Positions 6,508 to 51,489 of a DNA stretch of 63,546 bases are shown here, one piece after another; positions within the stretch are counted from its first letter, which is position 1, and every line of letters begins with the position of its first letter. The translations under genes and the position numbers were made by a program. The notes under the pieces are model-generated. The model searched no databases. It saw nothing but the letters and a program-made list of their open reading frames with translations, and had not been told where the DNA came from. The stretch lies in the IMG/VR virus record IMGVR_UViG_3300020122_000568, positions 1 to 63,546 of that record; one strand, 5' to 3'. Origin of the DNA: a virus.

Positions 6508-7253
6508 CCTCGCGCCCTGCCACGTGGGCGGCAGAATGGACGATGGCCGAGGATGCGCTCGTACGCTCGCTGTACGCCGTCCAAGGCGCCAGGGCATGCG
6601 CGGATGCCCTGCCCGGTCGCAGCGTCACTGCTGTGATGAAGCGTGCGCGCAAACTCGGGCTCGCCACGCATCGACGGTGGACCGATCTCGACTACAAGCG
6701 CCTGCGCCTGCTGTGGGGCGATGGCTTGTCGCTGGAGACGATCGCGAAGAAGCTCGGGCGCACGCCGAAAACGACGTACTGGCGCGCGCAGCATCTGGGC
6801 CTGCCGTTGGGTTGTCCTCAGGGGTACGAGTATCTGACGGCGGCCAGCGAGCGCACGGGCTACGACAGGACATCGTTGCGCATCATCCTGCGATGGGCGG
6901 GCGTCGATGTCTATCGCGCCATCACGCGCGAGTCGAAGCCACGCGGCCGGCTGAAGCGGCACTCATTTCGCCACCATTACGTCGATCCCGATCGCGTCGA
7001 TGAAGCGGTCGCCGGATGGCTGCGCACCGAATGCGTCGAGGCGGCTGCGCGGCGTATCGGCGTGTGCGGTGAGACCATTCGACGGTGGCTGATTGATGCA
7101 GGGCATACGCCGCCGACGAAACCGAGGGCACGTTGGCGCGTGGAATCAGCGGAGATCGATCGCGTTGCTGCGGATGGGCTGCGGAGATTCGCCAAACATC
7201 GGCGACCACGCGTGCGAGGCGACCGCGGTAGGTTCGCGAAGGTGGCGGCATAA
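6504..7253 (+). CDS. Multi-HTH DNA-binding protein (SANT/Myb-like)
   Basis: 249 residues, start GTG 6504. It shows serial helix-turn-helix units: W[12 protein letters not shown]...[15 protein letters not shown] (10-52), [13 protein letters not shown]...[24 protein letters not shown] (59-100), a third [12 protein letters not shown], and a fourth [21 protein letters not shown] (170-190). The C-terminus is strongly basic. Likely an early-operon regulator or genome-binding protein. Overlaps both neighbours by start/stop coupling. Confidence 0.7.
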
Positions 7254-7636
7254 TGGCCACGCGTCGCCTCCCCGTCCTCCGTCGCGACTGCGCCCCCGGC
7301 GGCTCGCTGCACATACGCCCGTGCCCATTCGCGTCGTGCAAATGGCAGAACGAGGACGGCACGTGCGTGCTCGACATCGCCGACGACGGTGGCGCCACGC
7401 TGCACGAGGTCGGCGAGCACATCGGCGTCACGCGCGAACGGGTGCGGCAGATCGAAACGAACGCCTTGCGCAAGCTCGCACGGGCCGCGCGCAGGCATGG
7501 GCTGACGGTTGAGGACGTTCTCGGCATCAACCGGCCGCGGCATGCGCTGGATTTCGGCGCCAACACCGACAGCCGAGGGCGCGATCGATCGAAGTTGGCG
7601 GTGTATCGCGAGCGTTGGGAGCAGAAGCACGGATGA
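7253..7636 (+). CDS. Sigma-70 region-4-like regulator
   Basis: 127 residues. Three cysteines occur early (CPFASC, TCVL), then [26 protein letters not shown] (about 50-75), a textbook sigma-70 region 4.2 helix-turn-helix. There is no region 2, so it cannot be a complete sigma factor. It may redirect host RNA polymerase or act as a promoter-binding co-regulator. Starts by TAATG overlap with the preceding gene. Confidence 0.75.
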
Positions 7637-8174: not shown

Positions 8175-8539
8175 TGATCGAGATCGCCGCCAACGTCATG
8201 TACGACGAAGATGAACTCGTCGCCAAGCTCGGCCTGAGCCGTTCGTGGCTGCGGCGCACCGTCGGTGGCTTGCTGGCAGGGCGTAAGCGTGTGTACCGTG
8301 GCGCAGACCTCTTGGCGAGGATGCGCCCGTGCAGCACAAGAAACGCTTCACCGTCAGCGTCGAGCGGCGTGGGAAGTATTGGCAGGCCCGGGTCTACTTC
8401 GAGGGCGAAGGCGGGAACAGCCGGCGATTCTCTACCGGCGTCGCGATCGGAGAGCGGTGGCGGGAGTCTAAAAGAGCGGCTGAGAAGGTGGCGGACGAGC
8501 ACGCCGCGAAGCTCGCCAATCAAACATCGGTCGCAGTAG
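8171..8539 (+). CDS. Excisionase-like HTH protein overlapping the integrase
   Basis: The GTG at 8171 overlaps the preceding TGA. The first 50 residues (YDEDELVAKLGLSRSWLRRT, then RVYRGADLLARM) form a MerR/excisionase-type winged-helix pattern. The frame does not stop there: it runs 211 bases into the integrase gene in another frame, giving a low-complexity Ser/Arg tail to residue 122. Position just before int fits a recombination directionality factor. Confidence 0.55.
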   Translation: MMIEIAANVMYDEDELVAKLGLSRSWLRRTVGGLLAGRKRVYRGADLLARMRPCSTRNASPSASSGVGSIGRPGSTSRAKAGTAGDSLPASRSESGGGSLKERLRRWRTSTPRSSPIKHRSQ

Positions 8540-9450
8540 ATGCCGACAACGATCACTCGCTGGACGCTGTAGCCGAGCGCATGCTGCACCAGAAGATGGC
8601 CGATGGCCGACGCGATCGAGCTGTCGAATTCTTGGCGCAGACGATCGACAGCCACGCCAAGCCATTCTTCGGCGCCACGCGCGACGTGCGCACGATACGC
8701 CGGCGTGACCTCGAAGCGTTCAAGGGTGACCTGCGCTCCCAGGGATACGCGCCGACGACCATCAACAACGCGCTCACCGGCATTCGTCAGATCTTGAAGT
8801 TCGCGTACGAGGTCGAGGAATCGATCGAGGCGATTCCGATCGTAAAGAACGTCGAGGTCGACAAGCGCGGCAAGGGCAAGCCGATCACCCCCGAACAGGC
8901 GGCGCGCTTCATTCGTTCGTTCTTGCCGAACGAGCGCGAGGAGCGCGAGTTCAACCTCTTCTTGCTCAACACCGGCCTGCGCAAACACGAGTGCCTGGCC
9001 ATCCGGTGGGACTGGGTCGACTGGAAGGCGCGCGAGGTCAGCATCCCAGCCGAGGTGCGCAAAGGCGGCAAGCCGCAGCGCGTGCCGACGCAATTGAATG
9101 AGGTTGCGTTCGGCCTGTTGGAGCGCCGCCGAGCTCGTCCAGAGCAGCCGAGCAAGCAGCGCGTGTGGTGGCAGTTGAAGACGTACGACGATGCCAGGCG
9201 GCGCGCGGCCGCGAAGGCGGGCATCGCCGGATACCGGCATCACGACGCCAGGCACACGCGCGCGACGCAATTGGGCGCCGAGGGAGCGACCGCGATCGAC
9301 CTGCGCGACCAGATGGGCTGGTCGACGCTGGCGATGGTAAATCGTTACACGCACCCCGATAAGGCGCGCGCGAAGAAGATGGCTGACAGAGTTCAACTCG
9401 GCGCCAGCCCGTCACGTCGAACCCGTCACAGTGGCAAAAAAGATGAATAA
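8329..9450 (+). CDS. int: Tyrosine recombinase (phage integrase)
   Basis: 373 residues from GTG 8329, with GCGAGG nine bases upstream. An N-terminal arm-binding beta region is followed by a SAM-like core-binding domain (about 75-165) and the catalytic domain: Arg218 in TGLRKHE, Lys in the VRKGGKPQRVP strand, His305-x-x-Arg308 in HDARHT, Trp331 in GWSTL, and nucleophile Tyr340 in NRYTH. It would integrate the circular genome at a host attB. The candidate attP lies at its 3' end. Confidence 0.95.
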   Translation: MQHKKRFTVSVERRGKYWQARVYFEGEGGNSRRFSTGVAIGERWRESKRAAEKVADEHAAKLANQTSVAVDADNDHSLDAVAERMLHQKMADGRRDRAVEFLAQTIDSHAKPFFGATRDVRTIRRRDLEAFKGDLRSQGYAPTTINNALTGIRQILKFAYEVEESIEAIPIVKNVEVDKRGKGKPITPEQAARFIRSFLPNEREEREFNLFLLNTGLRKHECLAIRWDWVDWKAREVSIPAEVRKGGKPQRVPTQLNEVAFGLLERRRARPEQPSKQRVWWQLKTYDDARRRAAAKAGIAGYRHHDARHTRATQLGAEGATAIDLRDQMGWSTLAMVNRYTHPDKARAKKMADRVQLGASPSRRTRHSGKKDE

Positions 9451-10657: not shown

Positions 10658-11479
10658 ATGGAGGAGGCAACGCAGGAGAATGAATTTCGTCGCTGGGCAT
10701 CGATCGAGCGCCTGGAGCAAATGGTCTCGATCACTGAGAAGGTCCACGGCTCCAACGCCCAGATCCTCGTGACCGAGACCGAGGTGCGGGCAGGCTCGCG
10801 CGAGCGTTGGCTCGACCGCATCCAAGACAACTACGGATTCTGCGCGCACGTCACCGAACACGCCGACGAGATCCGCGCCCTGCTCGGACTCGGGCGCCAT
10901 TACGGAGAGTGGTACGGCGCCGGAATCAACTCCGGCTACGGCCTGAAAGAGAAGCGCCTCGCCCTGTTCGACACGCGATGGGCCGACAAGCCGCGCCCAT
11001 CGTGGTGCGATGTCGTGCCGGTGATCTACCGTGGCCTGTACTACCCGGCTGCGCTCTCCGAGGCGATGGAAAAGCTGAAGACGGGCGGCTCGGTCATCCA
11101 GCCGGGTTTCATGGGCGCCGAGGGCGTGGTCGTTCGATTCGAGCGGTCGGGCGTGCTCATGAAGCACGTGTTCGCGTTGGAGGACACCGCGTGGCGGAAG
11201 GGCTATCGCGATCCTGAGACGAAGAACGCCGAGCGCGAGGCGAAGAACGCGCTGATCGCCGAACTGGGCGCGAAGTATCTTCAGCCGATCCGCCTGGAGA
11301 AGCTGTTGAGCAGCGACGAGCAGTACCGCATCGGCTACCCGCAAACGCTGCCACAGATCGTCAAGCTCTACTGCGCCGACCTTGAGCGGGAGACTCCAGA
11401 CTTGGATCCCGAGGCGTGGAAGGCGGCGAAGAAGACGCTGTTCCATTTCGTTCGCAGCCAGATCGAAGGACAGCGGTAG
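10658..11479 (+). CDS. RNA ligase (Rnl2-like nucleotidyltransferase)
   Basis: 273 residues. Motif I is EKVHGSN with the predicted AMP-accepting Lys28, the same K-V/I-H-G-x-N form as T4 Rnl2. Further motifs: HYGEWYG (81-87, motif III), RLALFD (100-105, IIIa), AEGVVVRF (154-161, IV) and LMKHVF with Lys169 (V). It should seal nicks in RNA, for example to repair tRNAs cut by host defence nucleases. No kinase/phosphatase partner was found nearby. Confidence 0.85.
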   Translation: MEEATQENEFRRWASIERLEQMVSITEKVHGSNAQILVTETEVRAGSRERWLDRIQDNYGFCAHVTEHADEIRALLGLGRHYGEWYGAGINSGYGLKEKRLALFDTRWADKPRPSWCDVVPVIYRGLYYPAALSEAMEKLKTGGSVIQPGFMGAEGVVVRFERSGVLMKHVFALEDTAWRKGYRDPETKNAEREAKNALIAELGAKYLQPIRLEKLLSSDEQYRIGYPQTLPQIVKLYCADLERETPDLDPEAWKAAKKTLFHFVRSQIEGQR

Positions 11480-11481
11480 CC

Positions 11482-11646
11482 ATGGAAGTCGCCCGTCAAC
11501 GCGTCTCGCTATGGCTGTCGCGTCTGGAGTGGTTCCGCATCGCCCGCTCGCTCGGCGTGCGCGACGATGAGGAGACCAACGCCTACTTCGCGATGATGGA
11601 CGGCGAGCAGCGACGTAGAGCGTTGCGGCGCGTGTGGTTCAACTGA
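11482..11646 (+). CDS. Short hypothetical protein
   Basis: 54 residues, Arg- and Trp-rich, two amphipathic helices. Starts two bases after the ligase stop. No family recognised. Confidence 0.5.
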   Translation: MEVARQRVSLWLSRLEWFRIARSLGVRDDEETNAYFAMMDGEQRRRALRRVWFN

Positions 11647-11647
11647 C

Positions 11648-12547
11648 GTGCTGGCGATCAGTCGCGACGGCACCGTGCGCGAGGTCGACTGGCCGATTAA
11701 CAGGCTGCATGTGGAACGCGTAGAACGCGTATCACTGCAGCGTGGATTCGATCTCACGGCGACTAGCGACGACCGTCCGCTCGCCTACGAATCCCAGTAC
11801 TACCTGCACCGCATGCCCGACTACGTGTTCGTTGAGGCAGGCATGCCACTGAGCGTCGCCAACGGCGTCTTGCGCACAGTCATGCGCCTCAGCCCCGCCG
11901 AGACGGTGCAAGACGCCGCCCGTGACGCTCTCTCGGTTTACATCAACGCACGCATGTCTCCGCGTCTGCTGCAGGAGATGACCGCGTACCTGCACAGCAT
12001 GGGCGTCGTGGAAGATGAGCGTCGTCCGGGCGGCGTCCGGCTCGTCGGCCGCCAAGAGGCAGAGCAGCGATTGATGGACCTCGCGCGCGACGAAAGCGAT
12101 CGTTGGGCGCGCGCTCAGTCGTATGGACGCACGCCGCGCGAGATGGAGCTCGAAGACGAGGTAAGGCGGCTGCGCCATCAGGCATGGAACGCCGAGATGA
12201 ACGCAATCGGCGCATCCATGGAGCGGGTGAAATCCATGAACGACGAACTCGCACGCCTGCGCGAGGAGAACATCCGCCTGCGCTCGTGGCGCTTCGGCCG
12301 CGGCGTCCCGCACAGGCTGGCGCTGCCGCAGTTCTCCGAGGCGTTCCCGCAGCAGCACGGCCGCTGGAGATGGCTGGAGGTTGACGGGGAGGCCCGCAAG
12401 TCGCCACCGATGGCGGAGCCGCGGCCGCGGGCGATTGCCGACGACGATGGACGCGAGGCATGCGCCGGGTGCCGCGGGCCGCTGCATTGCGGGCGGTGCT
12501 ATGCGTGCCGGCCGCTGACAAGGATGGAACAGGTGGAGGTGGATTGA
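11648..12547 (+). CDS. Hypothetical protein with coiled coil and zinc knuckle
   Basis: 299 residues from GTG 11648. The N-terminal 110 residues are alpha/beta. A coiled coil spans about 165-215 (EDEVRRLRHQAW, MNDELARLREENIRLR). The C-terminus holds CAGC, CGRC and a final C (about 272-287), a likely zinc site. Possibly an early regulatory scaffold. No family recognised. Confidence 0.65.
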   Translation: MLAISRDGTVREVDWPINRLHVERVERVSLQRGFDLTATSDDRPLAYESQYYLHRMPDYVFVEAGMPLSVANGVLRTVMRLSPAETVQDAARDALSVYINARMSPRLLQEMTAYLHSMGVVEDERRPGGVRLVGRQEAEQRLMDLARDESDRWARAQSYGRTPREMELEDEVRRLRHQAWNAEMNAIGASMERVKSMNDELARLREENIRLRSWRFGRGVPHRLALPQFSEAFPQQHGRWRWLEVDGEARKSPPMAEPRPRAIADDDGREACAGCRGPLHCGRCYACRPLTRMEQVEVD

Positions 12548-12741
12548 TGGGAATGAAGGTCCGCGCAGACAGCCACCTGCCGCTGTGGCGTCAGTCGATC
12601 AACCGTTGGCCCGCCGACCGTCGGGAAGCGTGGGAGCACTTGGCGGCGAAGTTGGAATACGAGGCCGCCGACTTCTACCCGACGCGCGAGGCGGCGGAGA
12701 AGGCAGCGTGGGAAGTGCTCGCGGTGGAGGTATCGCGATGA
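12547..12741 (+). CDS. Short hypothetical protein
   Basis: 64 residues, TGATG overlap with the upstream gene. Helical, with WPADRREAWEHLAAKL followed by FYPTREAAEKAAWEVL. No family recognised. Confidence 0.55.
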   Translation: MGMKVRADSHLPLWRQSINRWPADRREAWEHLAAKLEYEAADFYPTREAAEKAAWEVLAVEVSR

Positions 12742-13202
12742 CCGTCGACATCGACAAGCTCGAAGAATTGGCGCGCGCGGCGCCGTCGTCTGACTGGTAC
12801 GTCGAAGAGGAGCCCGACGAACAGGGCAGGACCATAGTGTACATGCCGCCAGGGGAAGCGTCATACATCGCCGCCACTGATCGAAAAGTCGTGCTCGAGC
12901 TGGTGCAGCGCCTGCGCGCGGCCGAGGGCACGGACGAGCCCGGCTATCACGCCGAGATGGCGATGAGCCGCGAGGACGCCGAAGCCGTACAGAATTGGGC
13001 CAAGGACGCGGCAGTGCGGCAGCGACTGGCGCTACTCGAGGCGATCGTGCGCGACCTGGCGGCGAAGGAACCGGCGGTCTACTTCCCGATGGGTGGCGAC
13101 TGGGCATGCGTACTGTGCTCTGACAGCGTGAAGCGCGTATCAGATCCGATGCTGCACGACATCGAATGCCCGTACCGCCGCGCCGTCGAGGCGATTCGGT
13201 GA
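12738..13202 (+). CDS. Ea22-like early protein with C-terminal zinc motif
   Basis: 154 residues, ATGA-coupled. The N-terminus (DKLEELARAA...WYVEEEP, YIAATDRKVVLELVQRLRA) resembles the Ea22/Ead family of lambdoid early proteins. The C-terminus has CVLC and HDIECPYRR, a C2HC zinc knuckle. Function of the family is unknown. Confidence 0.6.
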   Translation: MTVDIDKLEELARAAPSSDWYVEEEPDEQGRTIVYMPPGEASYIAATDRKVVLELVQRLRAAEGTDEPGYHAEMAMSREDAEAVQNWAKDAAVRQRLALLEAIVRDLAAKEPAVYFPMGGDWACVLCSDSVKRVSDPMLHDIECPYRRAVEAIR

Positions 13203-14296: not shown

Positions 14297-14812
14297 TTAG
14301 TAACCAACGGCAAATTGTAGGTGCATGGCGTCAGGCTTCTGCCACCGCCCGCCCCACACCCATCCGCGGCGCTCGAACTCGGCGATCCATGCCGCTGGGA
14401 TGTCGTAGCGCAGGACGCCGTCCATCGACAGCGGGTTCGCGTCAGGGTTGAGGTCGACCGCGATCCCCCACGAATGCGTCGACAGGTCGCCGTTGACGCG
14501 CTTGGGCCGCGGCGCGAAGCAGGCGAGTGAGACGATTCGATAGCCGTCGCCGAGCGCGATGCACGCTTCGAACGCGTCCAGCAAGACGGCCTTGACCTGC
14601 GCGTTGACGTAGAGCCGCCCTTTCGGCATCCACGGCGCGAACGCAACGGCCATGTTCGCGTCTTCCCAGCCCGGCGTGGTCACACGACCGCCCGCGACCT
14701 GGATATCGCCGTAGCGCGCGACGAGCTCGGCGCGGCCCCGCGGCGGCGCGAACCATCCGGGGATGGCCGAGACGAGCAAGGGATCGATGGGCGTGAGCGG
14801 GGGCGCGTTCAT
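14297..14812 (-). CDS. M15-family endolysin (D,D/L,D-carboxypeptidase type)
   Basis: 171 residues. Zinc peptidase motifs: STHSWGIAVDLN gives ligands His113 and Asp120, and DAMHLQF gives Asp161 and His164, the usual M15/VanY set. It should cleave peptidoglycan stem peptides at lysis. No signal peptide, so release needs a holin. Starts by ATGA overlap with the lipoprotein gene upstream. It is the final gene of the late operon. Confidence 0.85.
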   Translation of the reverse strand: MNAPPLTPIDPLLVSAIPGWFAPPRGRAELVARYGDIQVAGGRVTTPGWEDANMAVAFAPWMPKGRLYVNAQVKAVLLDAFEACIALGDGYRIVSLACFAPRPKRVNGDLSTHSWGIAVDLNPDANPLSMDGVLRYDIPAAWIAEFERRGWVWGGRWQKPDAMHLQFAVGY

Positions 14813-15177
14813 CGGCACACCGCCGGCTCGTCTCCTTCGCTCCAGCACACGCGGCCGCGAAGAGCGTCGATCATCGGGAACTCGGCGAGGTAGCGCTCTT
14901 CGCCGTGCGCGCGCACGCACGGCGCCCATCGGTGCGTCCCTGGCCATTGCGCGCTGCCGTTGATGGCGCTCGGTTCGCACCGCACGTGGACGATGGCGTC
15001 GTGGTCGGTCGGGTTGTGCGCGACAACGATGGTGCCGGCACGACCGTCCGCGAACCAGGCAGCGGGCGAACCTCCGACGGTGACCGCGAACGGCTCAACA
15101 GGGCGATCGGACACGTACGGCAGCGACGGAGCGCACGAAGCGACGGCGACCGCTAGGAGCAGCGCGCGCGTCAGCAT
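14809..15177 (-). CDS. Lipoprotein, possible outer spanin
   Basis: 122 residues starting MLTRALLLAVAVASC, a lipoprotein signal with acceptor Cys15; the +2 residue is Ala, compatible with outer-membrane sorting. The mature part is rich in short strands. Location beside the endolysin suggests a role in lysis, as for Rz1-type outer spanins, but it is longer than typical. Lysogenic conversion is the alternative. Confidence 0.65.
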   Translation of the reverse strand: MLTRALLLAVAVASCAPSLPYVSDRPVEPFAVTVGGSPAAWFADGRAGTIVVAHNPTDHDAIVHVRCEPSAINGSAQWPGTHRWAPCVRAHGEERYLAEFPMIDALRGRVCWSEGDEPAVCR

Positions 15178-15302: not shown

Positions 15303-15477
15303 CAGCGCGCTCCTTCTCGTAGCAGTGGACGCAGAGGCGCCGGTCGTCGGTGTCGATCATCAGCATCTCGCGACACGCCATGCAGCGGCAGAGGTCGCAG
15401 TCGTAGAGGGCCACGCGATCGTTCTGCGTCTGGACCGCGATCGTGCAGCGGTCGCAGATCGCAACGAGGTGAACCAT
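15295..15477 (-). CDS. Small zinc-ribbon protein
   Basis: 60 residues from ATG 15477, which overlaps the upstream stop (TGATG). Cysteine pairs CDRC, CDLC, CMAC and CVHC would make two zinc ribbons. Late-operon position near lysis genes; function unknown. Confidence 0.6.
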   Translation of the reverse strand: MVHLVAICDRCTIAVQTQNDRVALYDCDLCRCMACREMLMIDTDDRRLCVHCYEKERAGA

Positions 15478-16160
15478 CAGCCGCCCGCGCGCTCCGCGCA
15501 CGAAGTCGCCTTCGCCGCTGCCGCCGGGTGCGCCATCAGGAACAGGTTCGCGCCGTCATGCGCAGCCTTCAGCGTCGACGGCGCCGCCGCATCGGGCACG
15601 GCCCCGCCGCTCGGCACGCTGGGCAGCGGGTGCGTCGCCTGCCACGCCTTGACCGCGCACGCGACCAGGAACTCGCCGTCGGTGCCGGCGTAGACCAGGG
15701 CTTCCAGCGCCGCCGCTACGGGGCCTGCCGCGGCCGCCGTGGCCATGACCGCCTCGACCTGCTGCGGAATCTTCTGCGCCGCCGCTGGGAGCGCCGCCGC
15801 CGCCTCGGTCTTCAGGCACGCCTTGTAGGCCTTGCCGTAGGGCGTCGCGCAACTCGAGAGCAGCGGGATGAGCATCAGCGGCAGGAGCGCGCCAGCGGGC
15901 GGGCCGGGAGGCAGTGCGAGGCCCTTGGGCTGAGAGGCGAGGCCCGGGAGCGACAGCCATCCGCCGGCGATGCCCGTCTTGCCGTGCTCGGCGACCCAGG
16001 ACAGGCGGTCGGCAACGCGGCCGAGCTTGGCGCCGGCGTCGGGAGAGATGGCGCCGATCTGCGTCAGCACGTTGCGAACGGTGCCGAGGATGGTCGCGGC
16101 GGCGGCGAGCAAGGCGAGGGCCTGCCCCCAGTGGGCTTGCGCCCAGAGTACGTAGTGCAT
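15477..16160 (-). CDS. Two-part membrane protein (holin-like plus lipobox-like half)
   Basis: 227 residues. The N-terminal 30 residues are hydrophobic (LALLAAAATILGTV). A second hydrophobic stretch at about 92-103 ends in LIPLLSSC, a lipobox-like sequence in mid-protein, followed by an Ala-rich helical domain with Cys at 103, 114 and later. It looks like a fusion of a small membrane protein with a lipoprotein such as an outer spanin. Late lysis-region placement. Confidence 0.55.
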   Translation of the reverse strand: MHYVLWAQAHWGQALALLAAAATILGTVRNVLTQIGAISPDAGAKLGRVADRLSWVAEHGKTGIAGGWLSLPGLASQPKGLALPPGPPAGALLPLMLIPLLSSCATPYGKAYKACLKTEAAAALPAAAQKIPQQVEAVMATAAAAGPVAAALEALVYAGTDGEFLVACAVKAWQATHPLPSVPSGGAVPDAAAPSTLKAAHDGANLFLMAHPAAAAKATSCAERAGG

Positions 16161-16178: not shown

Positions 16179-16511
16179 TCAGCCACGGCCGTATTCGAGG
16201 CGCAGCCAGGCGGTGATGTTGTCGACGTCGTGGCGCAGCTGGCGCACGGCGGCTTCGAGGTCGGCGAGGCGAGAGCGGTCAGTGCGCGGCGCGGCCGCGG
16301 CGAGTTGGCGGTTGGCCTCGTCGATGTCGCGCGCCGGGTCTACGAGCGGCATCGGCCCCGAGTCGTCCCATGGCGACGGCGGGAGCGCATCGGGCGCGCG
16401 CGCTGGCGATGTGAGCGCTACGACCGCAGGATCGTCGGGCGACAGCGGGCGCAGGTCGGGACGCGTCCACGGGGTCACGGGCGGCGTCTCGTCTGCGTCG
16501 CGGCGCTTCAT
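16179..16511 (-). CDS. Pro-rich protein with C-terminal coiled coil
   Basis: 110 residues. The first 65 are Pro/Asp-rich and probably disordered; residues about 78-106 (SRLADLEAAVRQLRHDVDNI) form a coiled coil. ATGA overlap with the gene upstream. Function unknown; could be a small virion or lysis accessory protein. Confidence 0.55.
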   Translation of the reverse strand: MKRRDADETPPVTPWTRPDLRPLSPDDPAVVALTSPARAPDALPPSPWDDSGPMPLVDPARDIDEANRQLAAAAPRTDRSRLADLEAAVRQLRHDVDNITAWLRLEYGRG

Positions 16512-16906
16512 CGGCCGGCCAGGTGGCGGACGATGGCTCCGATGATGGCGCCGCCGATGGTCAGCGCCGCCACGATCAGCTTGTCGCGGATCTTCTTCTT
16601 CGCGTCGCCACCGCCGCGCAACTGCAACGCGAAGCTCGCGGTGATGCGATCGTCTTCCGACGCTGCCTTCACGAGCGCCTGACGTCCATCGCGAAGCTGT
16701 GCGAGAACGGCGCGGTTCTCGGCGAGCGCATCTTGCATCTCGCGGCGGGAGCGTGCGTCGAGGCTGTGGCTGGCGGAGATGATGCGCACGAGGCGTTCGA
16801 TCTGCATGACGGCCTGCGCGCTGAGCCCGGCGATGCGGTCGATCTTGCTGTCGAGGTCAGCGGGCGCGGGCGGGCTGGAGCGCGGCGTCTCGTCCTTCGT
16901 GCTCAT
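16508..16906 (-). CDS. Holin-like membrane protein with coiled coil
   Basis: 132 residues: a charged N-terminus, a long helical middle, and a C-terminal membrane segment (LIVAALTIGGAIIGAIV, about 112-128) followed by a short basic tail. One C-terminal transmembrane helix next to an endolysin suggests a holin or antiholin, although the long soluble part is unusual. Confidence 0.55.
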   Translation of the reverse strand: MSTKDETPRSSPPAPADLDSKIDRIAGLSAQAVMQIERLVRIISASHSLDARSRREMQDALAENRAVLAQLRDGRQALVKAASEDDRITASFALQLRGGGDAKKKIRDKLIVAALTIGGAIIGAIVRHLAGR

Positions 16907-16994: not shown

Positions 16995-18536
16995 CTAGTG
17001 AACGACGAAGTTGTCCCAGCGCGCGAGACCGGTGCGGCTGCAGTCATTCGAGCTCGCGAATCCGATTCCGGGCGCGCCGTGCAGCGTCGCATCGGTCGTG
17101 CTCAGCTTGGCGACGTCGTCGAGGTAGATCGTGATGACGTCGCCGACGACGGTGGCGCGCAATCGATGCTGTCCTTTGGCCTGCCCGCCGATCGCGGCGA
17201 CCGGGTGCCACGCGCCGTCGAGGAAGTATGCAAGACCGACGTAGCCGCCATACCACGGGTCCCACGTCCACGTCGCGATCCACCACGACGCCGAATCGCG
17301 CACGCGGAACGCCACCGACGTATCGCCGCTGCCCCATGTGCCGAGTCGACCGTCGACGCTGACGTCTTGGTCGCCGGCAAGGCGCGGATCGCTGACCCAC
17401 GCCACGCACGGGACCTGCTCCAAGAACGCGGCCGCGCCGTTGAGGATGCCCCACGACGATGGGAAGTGTCCGCCGGCGACGCATCCCTGTTGCCACGTCA
17501 GCGGACCGATAGAGCCGCCCTCCGTCGATCCGAGCGATGGCGCGTTGAAATAGGCGTAGGTCTGGTCGTCGCGATTGAAGCTATCGCAGACGCGCGCGCC
17601 CGCAGGACACGCTGCCGGCGTCAACCCGCGCGAGCCCGGCTCCGGCGGAATCACCGCGCCGAATGGGTGATCAGTCGTCGTCACCCACTGCGGCGGCACG
17701 CCAACTGGCGGCTCGGTTGCCTGTCCGTAGACGGTGCCGAGCGCGTCGTTGTCGGGACGTCCCGGGTGATGCACGCGCGGGCCGGTCGTGTCGCCGCCGT
17801 TGTAGCCGTCGCTGAGGTCAGCAATGATCGTCGCCGGCACCGTGTAATCGACGAGCAGGTCGGGCACGCGTCCGAAGCCGGTATCGTCGTTGGTGCTGTA
17901 GAGTCGTTCGGGCACCCAGGCTTGAATCCCCGTCGGAAAGAACGTCGCTTGATCGTAGACGCGCAGCTGCGCAAGGAGACCCGACCACGAGATATGATTC
18001 GAGCCGCCGACGTACAACACGCCCGCGCCCCATCCGCTCGGCGGCTCCGTGCGAGTGCCGGCCTGCTGCACCATTCCACATGGGATGCCGTCGACACGCG
18101 TGACCGCGATCGGATTGCCGGTGGCGTCGTTCTGCAGAGACCAGCTGAGCTCGAACCACCTCGACAGCACGCCGTCGTCGCATCCAAAGGAGACGCTGCC
18201 GCTGCCGGTCCAGTAGTTGCCGGCGCCGAGGCCTGACAGAAGCAGCGCGTGCGCGCCGCCGTAGCCGTCGCTGATGAGGTACCCCGACGGCGATGCGGGA
18301 TCGTTGCGAATCCACGCTTGCCACGTCGCCGCGGTGCCAAGACTGGCGGACGGCGCCCAGAACGTGCCGTGGTTGACGTGCTGGGTCCCGCCGTCGGGAG
18401 TGGACGAGCCGAGCAACTGAAGAAATGCCTTCGGCGCCGTGGTCGACGTCGAGCGACCCGCCTGCGCGTCGATGCGCGCGATAGGTTGCGGCGCGCAGCC
18501 GGCGAGGAGCGCTGCGAGGAGCAGAGACAAGCGCAT
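16995..18536 (-). CDS. Secreted lipoprotein with two LamG-like (jelly-roll) domains
   Basis: 513 residues. The N-terminus MRLSLLLAALLAGC is a lipoprotein signal with Cys14 (+2 Ala). Two concanavalin/LamG-like regions follow, about 50-200 (ATWQAWIRNDP, WFELSWSLQND, LAQLRVYD) and about 330-513 (WSDPRLAGDQDVSVDGR, VGDVITIYLDDVAKL, GLARWDNFVV). Such modules bind glycans and would fit a tail fibre, yet the signal peptide sends it to the cell envelope. It sits in the fibre position of the tail operon. Confidence 0.7.
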   Translation of the reverse strand: MRLSLLLAALLAGCAPQPIARIDAQAGRSTSTTAPKAFLQLLGSSTPDGGTQHVNHGTFWAPSASLGTAATWQAWIRNDPASPSGYLISDGYGGAHALLLSGLGAGNYWTGSGSVSFGCDDGVLSRWFELSWSLQNDATGNPIAVTRVDGIPCGMVQQAGTRTEPPSGWGAGVLYVGGSNHISWSGLLAQLRVYDQATFFPTGIQAWVPERLYSTNDDTGFGRVPDLLVDYTVPATIIADLSDGYNGGDTTGPRVHHPGRPDNDALGTVYGQATEPPVGVPPQWVTTTDHPFGAVIPPEPGSRGLTPAACPAGARVCDSFNRDDQTYAYFNAPSLGSTEGGSIGPLTWQQGCVAGGHFPSSWGILNGAAAFLEQVPCVAWVSDPRLAGDQDVSVDGRLGTWGSGDTSVAFRVRDSASWWIATWTWDPWYGGYVGLAYFLDGAWHPVAAIGGQAKGQHRLRATVVGDVITIYLDDVAKLSTTDATLHGAPGIGFASSNDCSRTGLARWDNFVVH

Positions 18537-18539
18537 CGG

Positions 18540-19466
18540 CTATTGCTCCGCCGGGAAGGAGGCCATATCGAGGCTGAAGCTCGCCGTCGAGTTGGAGGCG
18601 AGGTTGGCGCAGCTTACGTTTCCCGAGGAGTCGATCTGCACGACCGAGAAAACGCCGTTGCTGTACGAAGGCAGAAATTTCGTATTCAAAGGCCTATATC
18701 CCGCCGGGAACGTGAACACCGTCGCTGTAATCGATGAGCCATTGTGCACAAGCCCACGAATGTGCACCCAACCGATTGCGTCTTTGTAGTAGCCGACGTT
18801 GTCATAGGGCGCTCCTAGGTTGGTCCAGCTGTTGAGCAGCGTCGGTGCCGTCCATGAAATCGTCGGCGGCACCGCGCTCGTCGCTGTCGTCGTGTAGAAG
18901 CTCGACGAATTGCTCGTCGCGACGGTGAAAATGTTCGTACCGTTGCTGTAGCCGTACCACCAGCCGTGCGAGCCGTTGACGACGACCTTGCTGGCGACGC
19001 CGTCGACGTTGCCGCTCGAGCCGGCGATAGTGATCGTGTTCGTCGCTGAGGCCGAGCCTGATTCGTCGGTGATCGCCAAGTAGAACGGCACCGACGCAGT
19101 TCCCGCCGAGACCGTGAACGTGACAGTGCGCGCGGCCGTGATCGACGTATACGCAACCACCGTGTCCGTCGTGGCCGTCGTATAGTTCGCGTCGGCGACG
19201 GCGTGACGGCTCTGCGCGACGCCGCTTCCACCGCCGGCACCGATGGCAATATCAGAACCGTCGCTCTTGCGAAAGTTGGGCTGGTTGCCGTTGCACCAGT
19301 AGCCGGTGTCGCCGCTCTTGATCGGTGGCGACGTATTCGAGTAGCACTTGAACGCGCCGGCCGAGACCGTCGGCCCGGTGGCGGCGGCCTGCAGCGCGAA
19401 CGACAACGCGGCCACGACGACCAGCGCGAACACGCCAAATCGTTCGCGTCGGGAAAGGTTTCGCAT
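18540..19466 (-). CDS. Fibre-like protein with an N-terminal Sec signal
   Basis: 308 residues. Residues 1-29 are a clear Sec signal (RRER, then FGVFALVVVAALSFALQAAA). The middle is Thr/Ser-rich beta structure. The last 80 residues (GWVHIRGLVHNGSS, VFTFPAGYRP) match the receptor-binding tip repeat common in phage tail fibres. A secreted protein with a fibre tip is unexpected for a virion component; prophage-expressed surface adhesin or decoy is possible. Start has AGGA five bases upstream. Confidence 0.7.
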   Translation of the reverse strand: MRNLSRRERFGVFALVVVAALSFALQAAATGPTVSAGAFKCYSNTSPPIKSGDTGYWCNGNQPNFRKSDGSDIAIGAGGGSGVAQSRHAVADANYTTATTDTVVAYTSITAARTVTFTVSAGTASVPFYLAITDESGSASATNTITIAGSSGNVDGVASKVVVNGSHGWWYGYSNGTNIFTVATSNSSSFYTTTATSAVPPTISWTAPTLLNSWTNLGAPYDNVGYYKDAIGWVHIRGLVHNGSSITATVFTFPAGYRPLNTKFLPSYSNGVFSVVQIDSSGNVSCANLASNSTASFSLDMASFPAEQ

Positions 19467-19530
19467 GGTTATCCTGTGGGGTGGAAACTTTCAGGAGAAA
19501 TCGGCGATAACTACAGGTGTGGAGGCGTGG

Positions 19531-19722
19531 ATGCGGAGCTTGATTCTGGTGGCGGTGGCGGCGGCGCCCATGGTGCTCGGATGCACGGGATCGGATGGGA
19601 TCCCGATCGAACCCAAAGTGGACACATCATCGCAGGTATGCATTGCCGTAGCTTCCGCCGACGGCGGAACCTCATACATGCTCGGCGATATGATGTTTTC
19701 CGAACCCTCCTGCGCTCGCTAA
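19531..19722 (+). CDS. Plus-strand lipoprotein (moron candidate)
   Basis: 63 residues, the only rightward gene inside the leftward late region. ATG 19531 has GGAGG five bases upstream. The signal LILVAVAAAPMVLGC ends at Cys18 (+2 Thr); the mature 45 residues contain two more cysteines. Its TAA (19720-19722) abuts the minus-strand TGA at 19723-19725. Opposite orientation plus own upstream spacer is the classic layout of a lysogenic-conversion gene. Confidence 0.7.
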   Translation: MRSLILVAVAAAPMVLGCTGSDGIPIEPKVDTSSQVCIAVASADGGTSYMLGDMMFSEPSCAR

Positions 19723-20979
19723 TCACATTCCGGTGACGAACTGATCGGTCCCGAAGATGCTGACCATGATCAGGTCTCCGCTTGCTCCGTTGGTCGGCCC
19801 GGTTCCTCGCTTGCAAACGCGTAGCGTCCCGTCGGTGTGGAAGTTCAGAGCGAGCCCGTTGCCACCGCTGATGTAATCGAAGAAGTACAAATCTGTGGGC
19901 AACGCGCCAGGCCCTGTACCGGTGAAGAACCCCTTCGTCTGCAATGCCGGCGTCGCACTTCCTGGCGCGTCGAGGTGGATCGGGGTCGTAATGGATTCGA
20001 CGGCGCCCAAGGTCGTCGCATTTCCGAGAAATGCGAGCGTCACGACCACGAACCGATGCCGCCAGTCGATCGAATTGTCGAGCAGAGAACCGGGGCCAGT
20101 CGATTGATCGGCGGTGGTGGTCAGCAGTTTGAAGTGACCGAAGTATGAAACGTATGACCCCCAGCGCTCCGACGGTAGAGAACCAGCAGTCTTCTCCGAA
20201 ATCGCTCCCGAGTAGAACGACATCGGTCGAAGCCCATGCATGCGGTGCTGCTGCAGCCATCCACCGTTCCACGCTGGCGTAATCGCTGACTGCGCGATGG
20301 CCGTCCCCGACGTGTAGCCGTTCGCGACGGTGATATAGGCGAGCGCGAAGTTGAAGCTGGTCGCCGTGTCGGCGGGAAGCGCGGCGTTGATCTGCGCGGT
20401 GGTCGGAGGCGTCGCGCCCGTGAGGAAGCCTTGGTTGACGGCCAACTGAACTTGCGGGACGTCGTAAAGGTTCACCGACTGCGTGCTGATGCTGCCGTCG
20501 ACGACGCTCTTGATCTTCCGGCTCTGCGTGGAACTGGTGCCGGTGCTTGCCTGCCCGATCCCGGTATAGGCGGCGCCACCCGGCGGAGAAGCGATCGTAG
20601 CCGCGACCTGGCGATTGACGGTCGCATAGATGAGGTCGTAACGGTTCTGGCCGCTCGAATTCGAGGCGATGTTGGCCGGAATGTCGTCAGAGGCATCGAG
20701 CTTCGCAGCGTAGGTGATGGCCGTCGCCAGCGACGATGATGCGAGAAAGTATGCTGGCTGGCACGTGACCTTGCCGTTGCTTGCGCTCGGAATGAGAAGC
20801 AGGCGCGGGTTGACGCTCGCCGTCTCCTCGAGGATCGGCATCACCTTCTTGAGCACCTGCCCCGGCGTGAGCAAGACTTCGAGGGCGCGATCGTCAGCGT
20901 ACGCCGCAATGTCGCAATTGCGCTGGAGTTCGGGCGTCGTAAGCGACTGCCCGTCATTCCAGATCGATCGAATGAGCAT
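19723..20979 (-). CDS. Tail-fibre-region structural protein
   Basis: 418 residues from ATG 20979. N-terminal 190 residues are helical (PELQRNCDIAAYADDRALEV, LTPGQVLKKVMPILEE); the rest is Ser/Thr/Gly-rich beta structure, including GWLQQHRMHGLRP. Position after the tail I-like protein suggests fibre or baseplate attachment. No signal peptide, unlike the next two genes. No family recognised. Confidence 0.6.
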   Translation of the reverse strand: MLIRSIWNDGQSLTTPELQRNCDIAAYADDRALEVLLTPGQVLKKVMPILEETASVNPRLLLIPSASNGKVTCQPAYFLASSSLATAITYAAKLDASDDIPANIASNSSGQNRYDLIYATVNRQVAATIASPPGGAAYTGIGQASTGTSSTQSRKIKSVVDGSISTQSVNLYDVPQVQLAVNQGFLTGATPPTTAQINAALPADTATSFNFALAYITVANGYTSGTAIAQSAITPAWNGGWLQQHRMHGLRPMSFYSGAISEKTAGSLPSERWGSYVSYFGHFKLLTTTADQSTGPGSLLDNSIDWRHRFVVVTLAFLGNATTLGAVESITTPIHLDAPGSATPALQTKGFFTGTGPGALPTDLYFFDYISGGNGLALNFHTDGTLRVCKRGTGPTNGASGDLIMVSIFGTDQFVTGM

Positions 20980-20990
20980 TTGGAAGGCTC

Positions 20991-22025
20991 CTAGACCGCT
21001 CCGTTGAGCAGCGGATCGACGAACGCAAACCACGACACGCCGCCCGCCTTGCGCTGTTCCACTTCGTTGCGAATCTGTTCCATGAGGGTGTTTCCGACGG
21101 GCCCGCAGAATCCCGGGGACCACGTGGGCACGACGCCGTGCGACGGCTGCGTCCCGTACGTCGGATCGGTCGGGTCGTTGTTGCTGTGCGTGACCACCGG
21201 ATCGCTCGTAGTCGCGGGAGCGCAATAGTCAGTCACCGCCGCCACCGTGTTGCAGAACGGCATTTGCGAATCGTCGTTGCTGTCGCTCTGCAGAACTATG
21301 AAGAAGATCGCTCCCACCGCAGGCACGGTGTACACAGGCGGGTTGCTTGCCTTGTCCGGGTAGTTGGCGAGCAAGCGACGAGACCTGCTTGCCACCACGG
21401 TTTGGTTTGTCGTGGATGCTCCAAGTTGCGGTTGCGTCCACGTCTGCCACGGAGGGAGCACGCCGTGTTGCGGCTGCGTGCCGTAGGTGCTGCTGGACGA
21501 GTCGTTGTTGCTGTTCTTGACGACAGCATCGCTCGTGGTCGCCGGGCCGCAGAACGCCGCGTCTACGGTCTCGAAGAACACTGGTGCCAGCTGCGTGTAC
21601 TGCTGCGCGATCGCGATCACCGCCGGCTTGATCGCATTCGGCGTCACGACATCGACCGGGGCCAGCAGTCGAGCTCGATACGTCGGATCGTCCTCGGCCG
21701 CCAGGCGCGCTTTCTTGAAGATGTCGCCCCAGACGTCGAGCCACGACGTATCCGCGAACCGTGGCGACTGCTGCGCCTCGAGCACGAACGAGGCGCGCGC
21801 CCACATGGCGTTCGCCATCTCGCCCCAGGTCTGCAGGAGCGTGTCGCGAATCGCCGATGAGCCGCCGCGGAAGGCACCGGGAAGCAGCGACAGCAGGTCC
21901 GCCAGCGTCGACGTCGTGACGGTCGATCCAGCGGCGAGCGACACCGTCGGGTTGGTCTTGTCGATGACGATGTTGCCGTCGTCGGACGCCGGCAGGACGA
22001 TCGAGTCGTCGGGCGGGAGAATCAC
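20991..22025 (-). CDS. Tail protein I-like baseplate component
   Basis: 344 residues. The N-terminal half (LADLLSLLPGAF, LLQTWGEMANAMW, WGDIFKKARLAAEDDPTYR) fits the P2 gpI/Mu gp48 group that follows baseplate J and links the wedge to fibres. The second half holds an internal duplication: CGPATTSDAVV...NNDSSSS/TYGTQPQHGV recurs as CAPATTSDPVV...TYGTQPSHGV about 100 residues later. The repeat may be a fibre-docking or decoration element. Confidence 0.7.
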   Translation of the reverse strand: MILPPDDSIVLPASDDGNIVIDKTNPTVSLAAGSTVTTSTLADLLSLLPGAFRGGSSAIRDTLLQTWGEMANAMWARASFVLEAQQSPRFADTSWLDVWGDIFKKARLAAEDDPTYRARLLAPVDVVTPNAIKPAVIAIAQQYTQLAPVFFETVDAAFCGPATTSDAVVKNSNNDSSSSTYGTQPQHGVLPPWQTWTQPQLGASTTNQTVVASRSRRLLANYPDKASNPPVYTVPAVGAIFFIVLQSDSNDDSQMPFCNTVAAVTDYCAPATTSDPVVTHSNNDPTDPTYGTQPSHGVVPTWSPGFCGPVGNTLMEQIRNEVEQRKAGGVSWFAFVDPLLNGAV

Positions 22026-22552: not shown

Positions 22553-23782
22553 CTATTGGGTGAGCGGCCCGGCGACCGACAAGAAGATCGACGAGGAATT
22601 GACGATGTAACGCGGGATCGTCGTCACACCGCTGTAGTTGCTGATGCCGCCGCTGATGCCGAGCCGGCGCACGTCCGCAGTGGGCGAGGTCAAGATCGCC
22701 GTCTGCACCTCGGGGTGCGCTTGCTCGCACGAGCCGATGATCTGGTTGAGGAAGTATTCGTCCGCCTGCTGGCGATTGGTGAAGTAGGAGATGATATTGG
22801 CGACGGCCTGGGCGGTGATGGCCGCGGTGTTGTAGTTCACGAGGGGCCGCTGCATGTAGATGGTCCCAGTGATCGTGACGACGGTGATCGCATACGGCAA
22901 CACGAACACCGGAACACCGAAGGCGCGCCAGTTCTCGAGCGCGGAGGCGACGGCCGTTTGCAATGCCGGCGGCAGGTTGTAGTTGACGTCTCCGCAGAAG
23001 AGCTTGACCGTGCCGTCGCCGGGCTCGATCGGAACGATGCTGGTAGCCAGCACGCCCGGGACCTGCGCCGCGCCGACGATGAGCGCGCGCTTGGTGCCGC
23101 GCTTCTTCGAGTCGTCGAACGCCGCTTGCTTGAGCCGCGCGCGCAGTTGGTCGTTGGTCTCCTGGTCAGCACCGCCGCCAATCGGAGGCGGCGCGGCGAG
23201 AGCGCCGAGCACTGAATCGCCCGCAGTCGGCGTGTAGAGCGCCCACGTGGTGTCGCCAAGCGTGTCTTGAATCGTGGTGATCGGATTCTGCCCAGCCGCC
23301 GTGAAGGCGAGGTTGCCGATCACGCCCGCTTGCGTGCATGCCACAGGCACCGCGACCTTGAGCGTGTTCTGCGCGACCGAAACGTCCTGCGTGGCGGTGA
23401 AGTTGACGGCCGCGGTCGAGGGCGGAACCGCCGGCGCAACGAATCGAGTGCCGTTCGGAATCACCGTGGCGGCCGTGCCGCTGCGCTGCAGGTAGACCGT
23501 CGTGGTGGCTGCTGCGGCAGGGAGGCGTCCGTCGTTGAAGAGGTCGGCGGCGATGATGTCGAGGTCGTCGTCGACGGCTGAGACGAGCGAACGGGCGGCG
23601 ACGCGATCGGCGATGTGAGCGGTGTTGCGCGCAGCGAGCGCGGCGAAGGCCGAGAGCGCAAGATCCCAGCGAGAGCCAGGATGGAGGTTGACGGCTCCCG
23701 TGCCCTGGGGGTCTTGAAGCGAACGGATCTTCGCCTGACCGATCTGAACGAGCTCGGTCGGGGTCGGCAGTTCGTTGGCCAT
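22553..23782 (-). CDS. Baseplate J-family wedge protein
   Basis: 409 residues. Features of the J/gp47 family: N-terminal helical LVQIGQAKIRSL, GSRWDLALSAFAALAA, the beta part with RSGTAATVIPNGTRFVAP, GGGADQETNDQLRARLKQA, and VPIEPGDGTVKLF. It forms the wedge of the contractile baseplate. Gene order (W-like, J, small gene, I-like) matches Mu and P2. Confidence 0.88.
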   Translation of the reverse strand: MANELPTPTELVQIGQAKIRSLQDPQGTGAVNLHPGSRWDLALSAFAALAARNTAHIADRVAARSLVSAVDDDLDIIAADLFNDGRLPAAAATTTVYLQRSGTAATVIPNGTRFVAPAVPPSTAAVNFTATQDVSVAQNTLKVAVPVACTQAGVIGNLAFTAAGQNPITTIQDTLGDTTWALYTPTAGDSVLGALAAPPPIGGGADQETNDQLRARLKQAAFDDSKKRGTKRALIVGAAQVPGVLATSIVPIEPGDGTVKLFCGDVNYNLPPALQTAVASALENWRAFGVPVFVLPYAITVVTITGTIYMQRPLVNYNTAAITAQAVANIISYFTNRQQADEYFLNQIIGSCEQAHPEVQTAILTSPTADVRRLGISGGISNYSGVTTIPRYIVNSSSIFLSVAGPLTQ

Positions 23783-27771: not shown

Positions 27772-29406
27772 CTAGTAGTGGACGGTCGAGAACTTGTTAC
27801 GCGCGCTCTGCGTCGGGAACGACACGGCGTCGCTCACGGCGTCCTTGATGAACTTGTACGTGTCGATGCGAACGCGGTCGGCGTCGCGGGCGTCGTTGAT
27901 CGTCTGCTGCACCGTCATGTTGACGTTGACGTTCATGTTGCCCTGCTTGGTCGTGTTGGCCATGCCCAGCAGGTAGTCGGCCAGGTTGCTCTTGGAGGGA
28001 CCGCCACCAGCTGCGGTCTTCGCCGGCTTCGGGATCGGCATGTCGCCGAACAGCGAGCCGATCCCGTTGTCCTTGAGGCGCGAGAGAAAGTCGTTCCGCC
28101 CCGACTCCTGGCGCTCGCGGAAGCGGCGGTTGCCTTCCTTCTCGCGGCTCGACATGGCGTCGTCGATGTCTCGGTCGGTCGCGCCCGCCGGGATGATGCC
28201 GGCCTTCTTCATCAACCAGCGCATCGGCTTGACGTCGATCATGTCCTCGAACGACTCGCGCAGTTCGTCCATGTAGGCGATCGCAACGGCGAGCGCAGCG
28301 ACGAGCGCTGAGACGGCGACGACGATGGCTCCGATCGGATTGGCCGCCATGGCGATGTTGAGGCCCCACTGCGCCACCGTGAGCGCTTCGAGCGCGACTG
28401 CCTTGACCCCCGCCAAGATGAGCCACCGGCTCTCCCACACGAATGCGGCGGCGAGCGCGAGGCGGTAGACGCCCCAGGTGGCCGCGACGTAGGCGATGAC
28501 GGCCGAGATGGTGCGGAAGTGATTGGCGAGCCACACGATGACGTCGCCGAGCTTCTTCGCCCACTCCCAGACGAACTTGATGGCCTGGCCGAGACCTTCG
28601 CCGAGGCGCTTGGCGAAGAGGTCGACCGAGACGCGGTTCTTCTCGTACCAGGTGTTGACGTCGATCAGCACGCGCTTCAGCGATTCCAGCATCGGAACGG
28701 CGACGTTGCGCTTGAAGAAGTTGAAGTACGTCTCGGTCGTGGTGCTCACCGAAGTCCACGTGTTGCCGGCGGCAGCGAGCGCATCGTCGAAACCGCGCGT
28801 CGCCTTGGACAGGGCCTCCCAGCGCTTCTCCGGGCTCATCTCGTTGAACGCCTTTGCGTCGGAGATGCCCAAGAGCGGCTTCAGGTGCATGAACAGGGCG
28901 TTGGAAGCGCGTGCGCGGCCCTCCATGAGCATCTGGAGCTCGCGTCCGACCATGGCCGAGTCCATGCGGAAGAGGCGGCCGATGCCTTGGTACTTCAGCG
29001 CGACCTCTTCGATGGCCTTGATCGACTGCCCCGATTCGACGCCGCCGGGGAGCAGGCCGCGGAAGATCTCCTGCACGTCCTCGAACGTGCCTGGCACCTT
29101 GGCCGAGCGCATCATGAGGTCGTCGAGCAGTTCGCGGCTCATCATGAGCGCGCGATTGAATCCGTCGGGCCCCTTCGTGCCTGCCGCGCCGAACGCCTGA
29201 AACATGCCGGCGAAGGCGAGCCGCGTGTCCTCGGCCTTCTGACCAGCCACGATCAGACTCTCGCCCACGCCCTTGAAGAACCCCGTGACCATCCCGGCGA
29301 GGTTCGCCAAGTGGTCGAACATCGACGACAGGCGCCAGACGCGGCTTTCCGCGTCGCCGCTGTTCATGCGGTAGTTGAGCGCGATGTTGTAGGTCGTGTC
29401 GGCCAT
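27772..29406 (-). CDS. Tape measure protein
   Basis: 544 residues, largely helical, with hydrophobic segments at about 300-325 and 345-410 (WLILAGVKAVALEALTVA, GAIVVAVSALVAALAVAIAY). Position directly after the frameshifted tail chaperones and before the hub confirms the role: it sets tail length and may enter the host membrane. The length predicts a fairly short tail. Confidence 0.88.
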   Translation of the reverse strand: MADTTYNIALNYRMNSGDAESRVWRLSSMFDHLANLAGMVTGFFKGVGESLIVAGQKAEDTRLAFAGMFQAFGAAGTKGPDGFNRALMMSRELLDDLMMRSAKVPGTFEDVQEIFRGLLPGGVESGQSIKAIEEVALKYQGIGRLFRMDSAMVGRELQMLMEGRARASNALFMHLKPLLGISDAKAFNEMSPEKRWEALSKATRGFDDALAAAGNTWTSVSTTTETYFNFFKRNVAVPMLESLKRVLIDVNTWYEKNRVSVDLFAKRLGEGLGQAIKFVWEWAKKLGDVIVWLANHFRTISAVIAYVAATWGVYRLALAAAFVWESRWLILAGVKAVALEALTVAQWGLNIAMAANPIGAIVVAVSALVAALAVAIAYMDELRESFEDMIDVKPMRWLMKKAGIIPAGATDRDIDDAMSSREKEGNRRFRERQESGRNDFLSRLKDNGIGSLFGDMPIPKPAKTAAGGGPSKSNLADYLLGMANTTKQGNMNVNVNMTVQQTINDARDADRVRIDTYKFIKDAVSDAVSFPTQSARNKFSTVHY

Positions 29407-42496: not shown

Positions 42497-43039
42497 TCAC
42501 GCTGCTCCGCCCATCGGACGCATCGAGGCGTGCGCCCACTTCTTGGCCTTCGCCTCGATCAACTGGCGCTTGATCGGCTTGGCGTGATCGATCAGTAGCT
42601 TTCCGTCGAGGTGGTCGACCTCATGCAGCACTGCGCGCGCCAGCATACCGTCGCAGTCCATGCGCGCGCCGCGGCCGTTGAGTTGCGTGAAGCGAATGGC
42701 GCATGTCGTCGCTCGCGTGACCTCGACGCGCACGCCGGGGAAGGACAGACAGCCCTCGGCCTCGGTGGCCATCTCGTCCCCCAGCGCCTCGACGAAGGGG
42801 TTGATGAGCGCGATCGGCTGATGCTTGCCATCTTCTCCGCCGACGACGCGCGGGCTGAGCACGAAGACGCGGACGTTGGCGCCGATCTGCGGGCCAGCGA
42901 CGCCGAAGGCTCGAAAGGCGCGCAGCGTATCTTCGAGGTCGATGATCAGAGCGAACGTTTTCTCGTCGAGGGTCGTCACGTCGGTGGACGCTTCACGCAG
43001 ACTCGAAGCGGGATAGAGGACAATCGGCTGAACGGCCAT
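42497..43039 (-). CDS. def: Peptide deformylase
   Basis: 180 residues with all three PDF motifs: GVAGPQIG (46-53; usual GLAAPQIG, so one Ala is Gly), EGCLSFPG with metal ligand Cys97, and HEVDH with His139, Glu140, His143. It removes formyl groups from nascent proteins. Start ATG 43039 overlaps the terminase stop by one base. Presence in the packaging module is unusual. Confidence 0.9.
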   Translation of the reverse strand: MAVQPIVLYPASSLREASTDVTTLDEKTFALIIDLEDTLRAFRAFGVAGPQIGANVRVFVLSPRVVGGEDGKHQPIALINPFVEALGDEMATEAEGCLSFPGVRVEVTRATTCAIRFTQLNGRGARMDCDGMLARAVLHEVDHLDGKLLIDHAKPIKRQLIEAKAKKWAHASMRPMGGAA

Positions 43040-48486: not shown

Positions 48487-48522
48487 GCCGCGCACCCCGG
48501 GTTGTACTTGACGGGCGTCTAC

Positions 48523-51234: not shown

Positions 51235-51489
51235 TCACCTACAAATCGACGCCCCCGCACAAGTCCACTCGTCGCCGCCATCGCTGCGCACGCACCCGAG
51301 CGACGTCAACTTGTCGTCAACCGCTTGGTCGATCGCAGCCTGCACCGCCGCCGACTGAAGCTTGCACTTGTCGACGAGATCCTGCTCCAGCGTCGCGAGC
51401 TTCGCGTCCACGATTCGCTCGCACTGCTGCTGCAGATCGGGCGGCACGCACCCGCACGCCAGCACCGCGCACAAGGTCAGCACGCGCAT
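51235..51489 (-). CDS. Small lipoprotein
   Basis: 84 residues: signal MRVLTLCAVLACGC with Cys12 or Cys14 (+2 Val if Cys14), then an amphipathic helix (CERIVDAKLATLEQDLVDKC) and a CxxxxxxxxxxC end. Resembles small outer-membrane lipoproteins. It lies in the early leftward operon, so expression may precede lysis. Confidence 0.65.
   Translation of the reverse strand: MRVLTLCAVLACGCVPPDLQQQCERIVDAKLATLEQDLVDKCKLQSAAVQAAIDQAVDDKLTSLGCVRSDGGDEWTCAGASICR

Follow-up and report, generated by a model that had tools for sequence, protein, structure and literature searches.

The window analysed here, which spans a single IMG/VR virus record (63,546 bases, GC content 65%) in full, carries on its minus strand, read from right to left, the genes for terminase, portal, a probable sheath, tape measure and baseplate proteins, followed by genes encoding proteins of 418, 308 and 513 amino acids, small genes and an M15 endolysin (Table 1). 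The 418-aa protein is a candidate virion fibre or tail protein, whereas the 308-aa and the 513-aa protein, which also lie in the fibre slot, start with export signals, and a gene for a 63-aa lipoprotein runs in the opposite direction beside them. Besides a tyrosine integrase, from which the phage can be assumed to be probably temperate, DnaB, a sigma factor and a serine recombinase are encoded. One and the same phage therewith harbors two recombinases, the tyrosine integrase (8329-9450, plus strand) and the serine recombinase (47812-48495, minus strand). The nearest terminase match in the phage collection has an identity of ~37%, which sets this phage far apart from those already known. When the 308-aa, the 513-aa, the terminase and the baseplate protein were each used as query in single-protein scans, no close relative of the window was returned, and among the terminase relatives, gathered via alignment, a baseplate match was present in 2 of 14. 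From the lipoprotein style and the GC content we guess a host among the Myxococcota; no convincing relative was found in the ~190 Myxococcota genomes searched.

Table 1. Genes and features of the window with their coordinates.
Feature	Position	Strand	Remarks
Tyrosine integrase	8329..9450	+	PF00589, E 2.7e-18
M15 peptidase endolysin	14297..14818	-	
Small protein, start of lysis region	16508..16906	-	very weak spanin-family match, E 0.03
513-aa predicted lipoprotein	16995-18536	-	starts 3 bp after 308-aa gene
Lipoprotein signal of 513-aa protein	18495..18536	-	lipobox LLAG/C (Cys14)
308-aa ORF	18540-19466	-	fibre-like; Sec signal, then a short N-terminal segment with Cys, a fibre repeat and a receptor-binding head domain
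Head (tip) domain of 308-aa protein	18543..18869	-	residues 200-308; profile, identity and fold matches
Predicted Sec signal peptide of 308-aa protein	19380..19466	-	residues 1-29; sequence, heuristic caller, modelled helix
Divergent intergenic region, 308-aa/63-aa genes	19467..19530		64 nt, GC 0.53
63-aa small lipoprotein	19531-19722	+	placed like T5 Llp; divergent beside 308-aa gene
418-aa protein	19723..20979	-	no export signal; directly upstream of 308-aa gene; no family match
Baseplate protein	20991..22025	-	phrog_1160, E 2.4e-5
Baseplate wedge (J-like) protein	22553..23782	-	phrog_6, E 3e-30
Tape measure	27772-29406	-	
Probable sheath	30492-32312	-	assigned by sight
Portal	39145-40836	-	
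Terminase	43039-44568	-	

Signals and domains of the three proteins

The 308-aa protein begins with MRNLSRRERFGVFALVVVAALSFALQAAA/TGPT, hence with a charged n-region, a hydrophobic core and AxA-type sites, and at the start codon used our heuristic caller recognises the n-region charge, the core and the -3/-1 site of a Sec-exported protein. The Shine-Dalgarno sequence AGGA lies 5 nt upstream of the ATG, and residues 6-24 form a helix in the AlphaFold2 model. When the translation was read by eye, no in-frame start was found after a TTG at residue 21 until about residue 106, and therefore the fibre domain is not easily made without the signal N-terminus. The middle of the protein is like common fibre repeats, and residues 200-308 match PHROG minor-tail families (E ~1e-10) with up to 48% identity to phage proteins, the highest value being that to a Janthinobacterium phage protein. 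In the AlphaFold2 model, calculated from a 38-row alignment, confidence is high for the head part only (pLDDT mostly 80-98), and there the fold is that of the receptor-binding protein (RBP) heads of gp15 of Listeria phage PSA and of the lactococcal phages TP901-1 and p2 (Foldseek probability 1.00), which are saccharide-binding. On sequence and fold the protein can thus be placed among those with a phage receptor-binding head domain, and it shares with these RBPs both the head fold at the C-terminus and the position in the fibre slot. To our knowledge, the RBPs of PSA, TP901-1 and p2 are virion proteins without export signals, whereas the 308-aa protein has a Sec signal. It thereby differs from an ordinary virion tail fibre, for which no such signal is expected and which its viral relatives resemble in lacking one. 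No non-exported protein of the window shares a domain with it.

The 513-aa protein starts with MRLSLLLAALLAG/C and the 63-aa protein with MRSLILVAVAAAPMVLG/C, and both show the signal of a bacterial lipoprotein ending in a lipobox with its cysteine, LLAG/C (which is clear) in the former and VLG/C at Cys18 in the latter. A first-pass annotation of this DNA had described a fibre-tip protein with a Sec signal, a lone rightward gene for a 63-residue lipoprotein next to it and a protein with a lipobox and two LamG-like domains. The first two descriptions agree with our results, and so does the lipobox of the third, but the two LamG domains do not: the 513-aa protein has no Pfam match at E<=1, LamG included, and local profile search and hhalign gave no support for LamG. 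Its C-terminal half matches a secreted LamG-like ORF of Myxococcota (E 1e-4), whose own matches to the models for 3-keto-disaccharide hydrolase and Laminin_G_3 stay below the cut-offs, and may accordingly be described as LamG-like or 3-keto-disaccharide-hydrolase-like; in the N-terminal half a LamG-like match is seen by eye only. The AlphaFold2 model of this protein has a pLDDT of 36. A short match to locus L134 was rejected as spurious when it was read.

The 63-aa lipoprotein contains two more cysteines at positions 37 and 61, and GGAGG is located 5 nt ahead of its ATG. It does not match the Cor/Llp profile phrog_1119, only phrog_31311 and phrog_542 at E 0.04-0.11, and neither the PHROG profiles nor further searches yielded a convincing homolog. 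No sigma-70 promoter match is present in the divergent gap. A sigma-70-like factor with regions 2 and 4 is encoded by the phage itself (46320-46964, minus strand), which could explain why sigma-70 promoter matches are missing from the late region.

All export and lipobox calls were made with our own heuristic caller and not with SignalP or LipoP, and its chance rates were determined on controls. Of the shuffled N-termini of the window proteins, 2.3% received an export call of any type and 0.03% a lipobox call; for internal windows, the values are 1.6% and 0.18%, respectively. The three neighbouring signals are not there by chance. Among ~89 viral ORFs with a head domain of the 308-aa type no plausible signal was found, neither at the chosen nor at other starts, and when the scan was repeated leniently, all candidates were internal or unconvincing. 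Of the 44 head-domain ORFs from bacterial genomes, ~10 carry a signal by inspection, several of them among housekeeping genes (L089, L118, L123). The head domain is thus found on predicted exported proteins of bacteria, but export is exceptional on its viral copies. The chromosomal proteins of L089, L118 and L123 are like the 308-aa protein in combining export with this head domain and unlike it in lying among ordinary bacterial genes instead of a phage late module. Locus L089, from a Wallbacteria MAG, encodes several tandem exported proteins with a near-identical signal and start, MRSFLPLIFFICLNYGLPAADITATLDS, of which at least two have the phage head domain.

Fibre-like proteins with export signals in other viral contigs

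A scan of head-domain neighbourhoods revealed large exported proteins in the fibre slots of L067 and L078. In L067, which belongs to another phage lineage, a non-exported head-domain protein is followed by an exported protein of 231 aa, and the two share their last 55 residues with 69% identity (E 4e-20), so that L067 is a case of a predicted exported partner beside a non-exported tip. The same contig encodes an exported fibre-like protein of 1017 aa and an exported Laminin_G_3 protein, and with the 1017-aa protein as query we recovered contigs in which several exported ORFs follow one another (L249, L250, L251, L252, L253, L256 and L257). In the myophage contig L250, a baseplate wedge gene is followed by a non-exported tail fibre and then by an exported tailspike- or depolymerase-like protein matching EPS-depolymerase and tail-fibre families, with further exported fibre-like ORFs behind it. 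Between the tailspike-like and the fibre-like genes of L250 lies a gene for an exported 221-aa protein (6769-7434) that by eye has the look of an outer-membrane barrel. The fibre slot of viral contig L253 harbors an exported 635-aa protein of the phosphoesterase family (11085-12992; PF04185, E 2.6e-33).

A shared mobile fibre module, TNDCVKFDxNGNTxDAG..C, was used as query for the last scan. All 25 recovered viral ORFs have export-signal N-termini; since the set was seeded from an exported protein, this describes an association with the module and not a rate for all fibres, and some of the 25 loci are on contigs already found while three are identical to each other. Two ORFs (L301 and L309) start with TTG behind a good Shine-Dalgarno site, and L292, on the same contig as L251, requires a non-ATG start. 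Among the distinct sequences, which are related and therefore not 21 independent events, 18 have both cysteines of the module, three have neither and none has a single one, as is expected of a disulphide in an oxidising compartment. A regular expression written for a Cys variant of a small fibre N-terminal domain gave too few cases. Overall, the exported proteins contain 1.68% Cys versus 0.93% (P 2e-5); in the window, neither the 308-aa protein (P 0.44) nor the 513-aa protein (P 0.09) is significantly enriched. Among genes of at least 200 aa, the share with an export call is 2.6% in contigs related by terminase, 3.1% in the surroundings of head-domain genes and 31% in the module contigs. A tyrosine integrase is detectable in only three of the 11 virus records with exported fibre proteins, some of which may be fragments, and this points to a role in infection and not in lysogeny alone.

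Based on the signal anatomy, the signal-free viral relatives of the head domain and this separate set of signal-bearing fibre-like proteins, the 308-aa and 513-aa proteins are predicted to be exported and not to be ordinary virion fibres, in line with the first-pass annotation. We are confident that they and the 63-aa protein are exported, and as a group they are probably directed to the envelope and not built into virus particles. Our searches of the open-access literature gave no paper that describes exported tail fibres as a class. A survey of phage DGR target proteins reports no signal peptides (PMC6199706). For Porphyromonas gingivalis phages (Nixviridae), signal-peptide genes of unknown function that are adapted to the host Sec system have been described (PMC10367356); in contrast to the genes of the window, they are not connected with fibres, tailspikes or the fibre slot in the passage that describes them. 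The occurrence of similar exported fibre proteins in unrelated viruses suggests a little-noticed way to cover the phage's own docking sites.

Proposed receptor shielding and alternative roles

Phage lipoproteins that act in superinfection exclusion are known, and in the reading that we favour, although tentatively, the exported proteins of the window would shield the receptor used by this phage, together with surface sugars, while the infection proceeds. At a late stage, the 308-aa protein would reach the periplasm or beyond and occupy the sugars or the receptor recognised by the virion. The 513-aa lipoprotein would bind envelope glycans from its membrane anchor, and the 63-aa lipoprotein, in the manner of Llp, would act from the membrane side to jam or hide the receptor. 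In combination, superinfection would be blocked and newly released virions would be kept off the debris of lysed cells. This reading is helped by the divergent arrangement, which resembles that of oad (minus strand) and llp (plus strand) of phage T5, separated by ~80 nt there and by 64 nt here: a small lipoprotein gene adjoins a receptor-binding or fibre gene and runs away from it, and as in Llp and Cor the mature part of the lipoprotein has further cysteines. The likeness is one of gene arrangement. T5 Llp matches phrog_1119 (1e-19), which the 63-aa protein does not, and unlike oad the fibre gene beside the lipoprotein itself carries an export signal. T5 Llp acts from the periplasm, where it jams the receptor (PMC9586334), and it has been proposed to limit the loss of progeny on debris; the Llp of BF23 does the same job with no homology to T5 Llp (PMC4728585). 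Masking of receptors was one of the roles proposed in the first-pass annotation, and it is the option preferred here with the T5-like arrangement in its favour; the shielding itself we infer, and the position of the 63-aa lipoprotein outside the Cor/Llp family, the insignificant Cys enrichment in the window and the missing decoy paralog of the L067 type, i.e. a non-exported partner sharing a domain with the 308-aa protein, count against it.

Somewhat more guardedly, we consider that several tailed-phage lineages might possess a class of Sec-exported fibres and tailspikes that perhaps mature in the periplasm and are either mounted on virions at lysis or act as soluble receptor decoys. Tail fibres decide which host cells are infected and are taken to be cytoplasmic parts of the virion. 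If true, such a class breaks the working rule that the adhesion proteins of tailed phages are made and assembled only in the cytoplasm. If fibre export is routine, genes in the fibre slot can not be assumed to encode virion receptor-binding proteins when host range is predicted, and there is a further, testable layer of phage-phage competition at the cell envelope.

It is rather unlikely that the proteins serve lysogenic conversion, in which the prophage would express them as surface adhesins or morons and alter the adhesion or behaviour of the host. The integrase of the window, the exported head-domain proteins among chromosomal housekeeping genes and the plus-strand 63-aa lipoprotein gene, which is set apart from the late minus-strand genes, would fit such a role, and there is a precedent in PblB, a phage tail protein on cell surfaces for which a signal peptide is predicted in one strain (PMC4508584). 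PblA and PblB of Streptococcus phages are like the proteins of the window in being phage tail proteins that act at bacterial surfaces; they differ in having a Gram-positive host and in being large tail proteins that are released on lysis in S. mitis. However, the 308-aa and 513-aa genes stand in the late tail-to-lysis order with a spacing of 3 bp, in eight of the 11 records with exported fibres no tyrosine integrase was detected, and the divergent gap lacks a promoter match. The display on lysogens suggested in the first-pass annotation is weakened by the same late position and the same scarcity of integrases. Since the window encodes an integrase, expression in a lysogen is possible, above all of the 63-aa lipoprotein, and taken together the earlier interpretation is supported in part.

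It is unlikely as well that the exported fibres are virion parts whose folding and disulphide formation take place in the periplasm and which join the tails once lysis has mixed the compartments. This would agree with the location of the genes in the late module's fibre slot, with the tailspike- or depolymerase-like and fibre modules among the exported proteins elsewhere, with the coupled Cys pair of the module and with the fact that the only recognised RBP head domain of the window is the exported one. On the other hand, tip or fibre genes without export signals are present as well in L067 and L250, and its lipid anchor would keep the 513-aa protein from attaching to tails. Moreover, we know of no precedent in tailed phages for virion fibres that mature outside the cytoplasm, which we count against this explanation. 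It is improbable that the proteins are ordinary virion components of the cytoplasm with N-termini, for example hydrophobic assembly segments, that look like signals without being such. Their position in the fibre slot would suit this, and so would the heuristic nature of the export calls; but three neighbours have textbook signals, two of them with lipoboxes (chance ~0.03-0.2%), the viral relatives with the same domain have none, and the cysteines are coupled in the wider exported set. An artefact of a wrong start codon or of misjoined host DNA is very improbable, since, although no close relatives of the window were found against which the starts could be checked by conservation, the Shine-Dalgarno sites are good, the 308-aa ORF has no alternative start from residue 21 to ~106, and baseplate and endolysin genes flank the export genes on one contig.

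Other predicted lipoproteins of the window

Further predicted lipoproteins are encoded at 14809-15177, 47001-47498 and 51235-51489, all on the minus strand. The latter two are very Cys-rich, with 16 Cys in 165 aa and 8 Cys in 84 aa, respectively, unlike the rest of the phage. The first one, of 122 aa, adjoins the endolysin and has a very weak match to an endolysin family (E 0.009). In the same region, a 227-aa protein (15477-16160, minus strand) combines a hydrophobic N-terminal segment with the internal lipobox-like motif MLIPLLSSC, as could result from a holin that is fused to a lipoprotein or overlaps with one.
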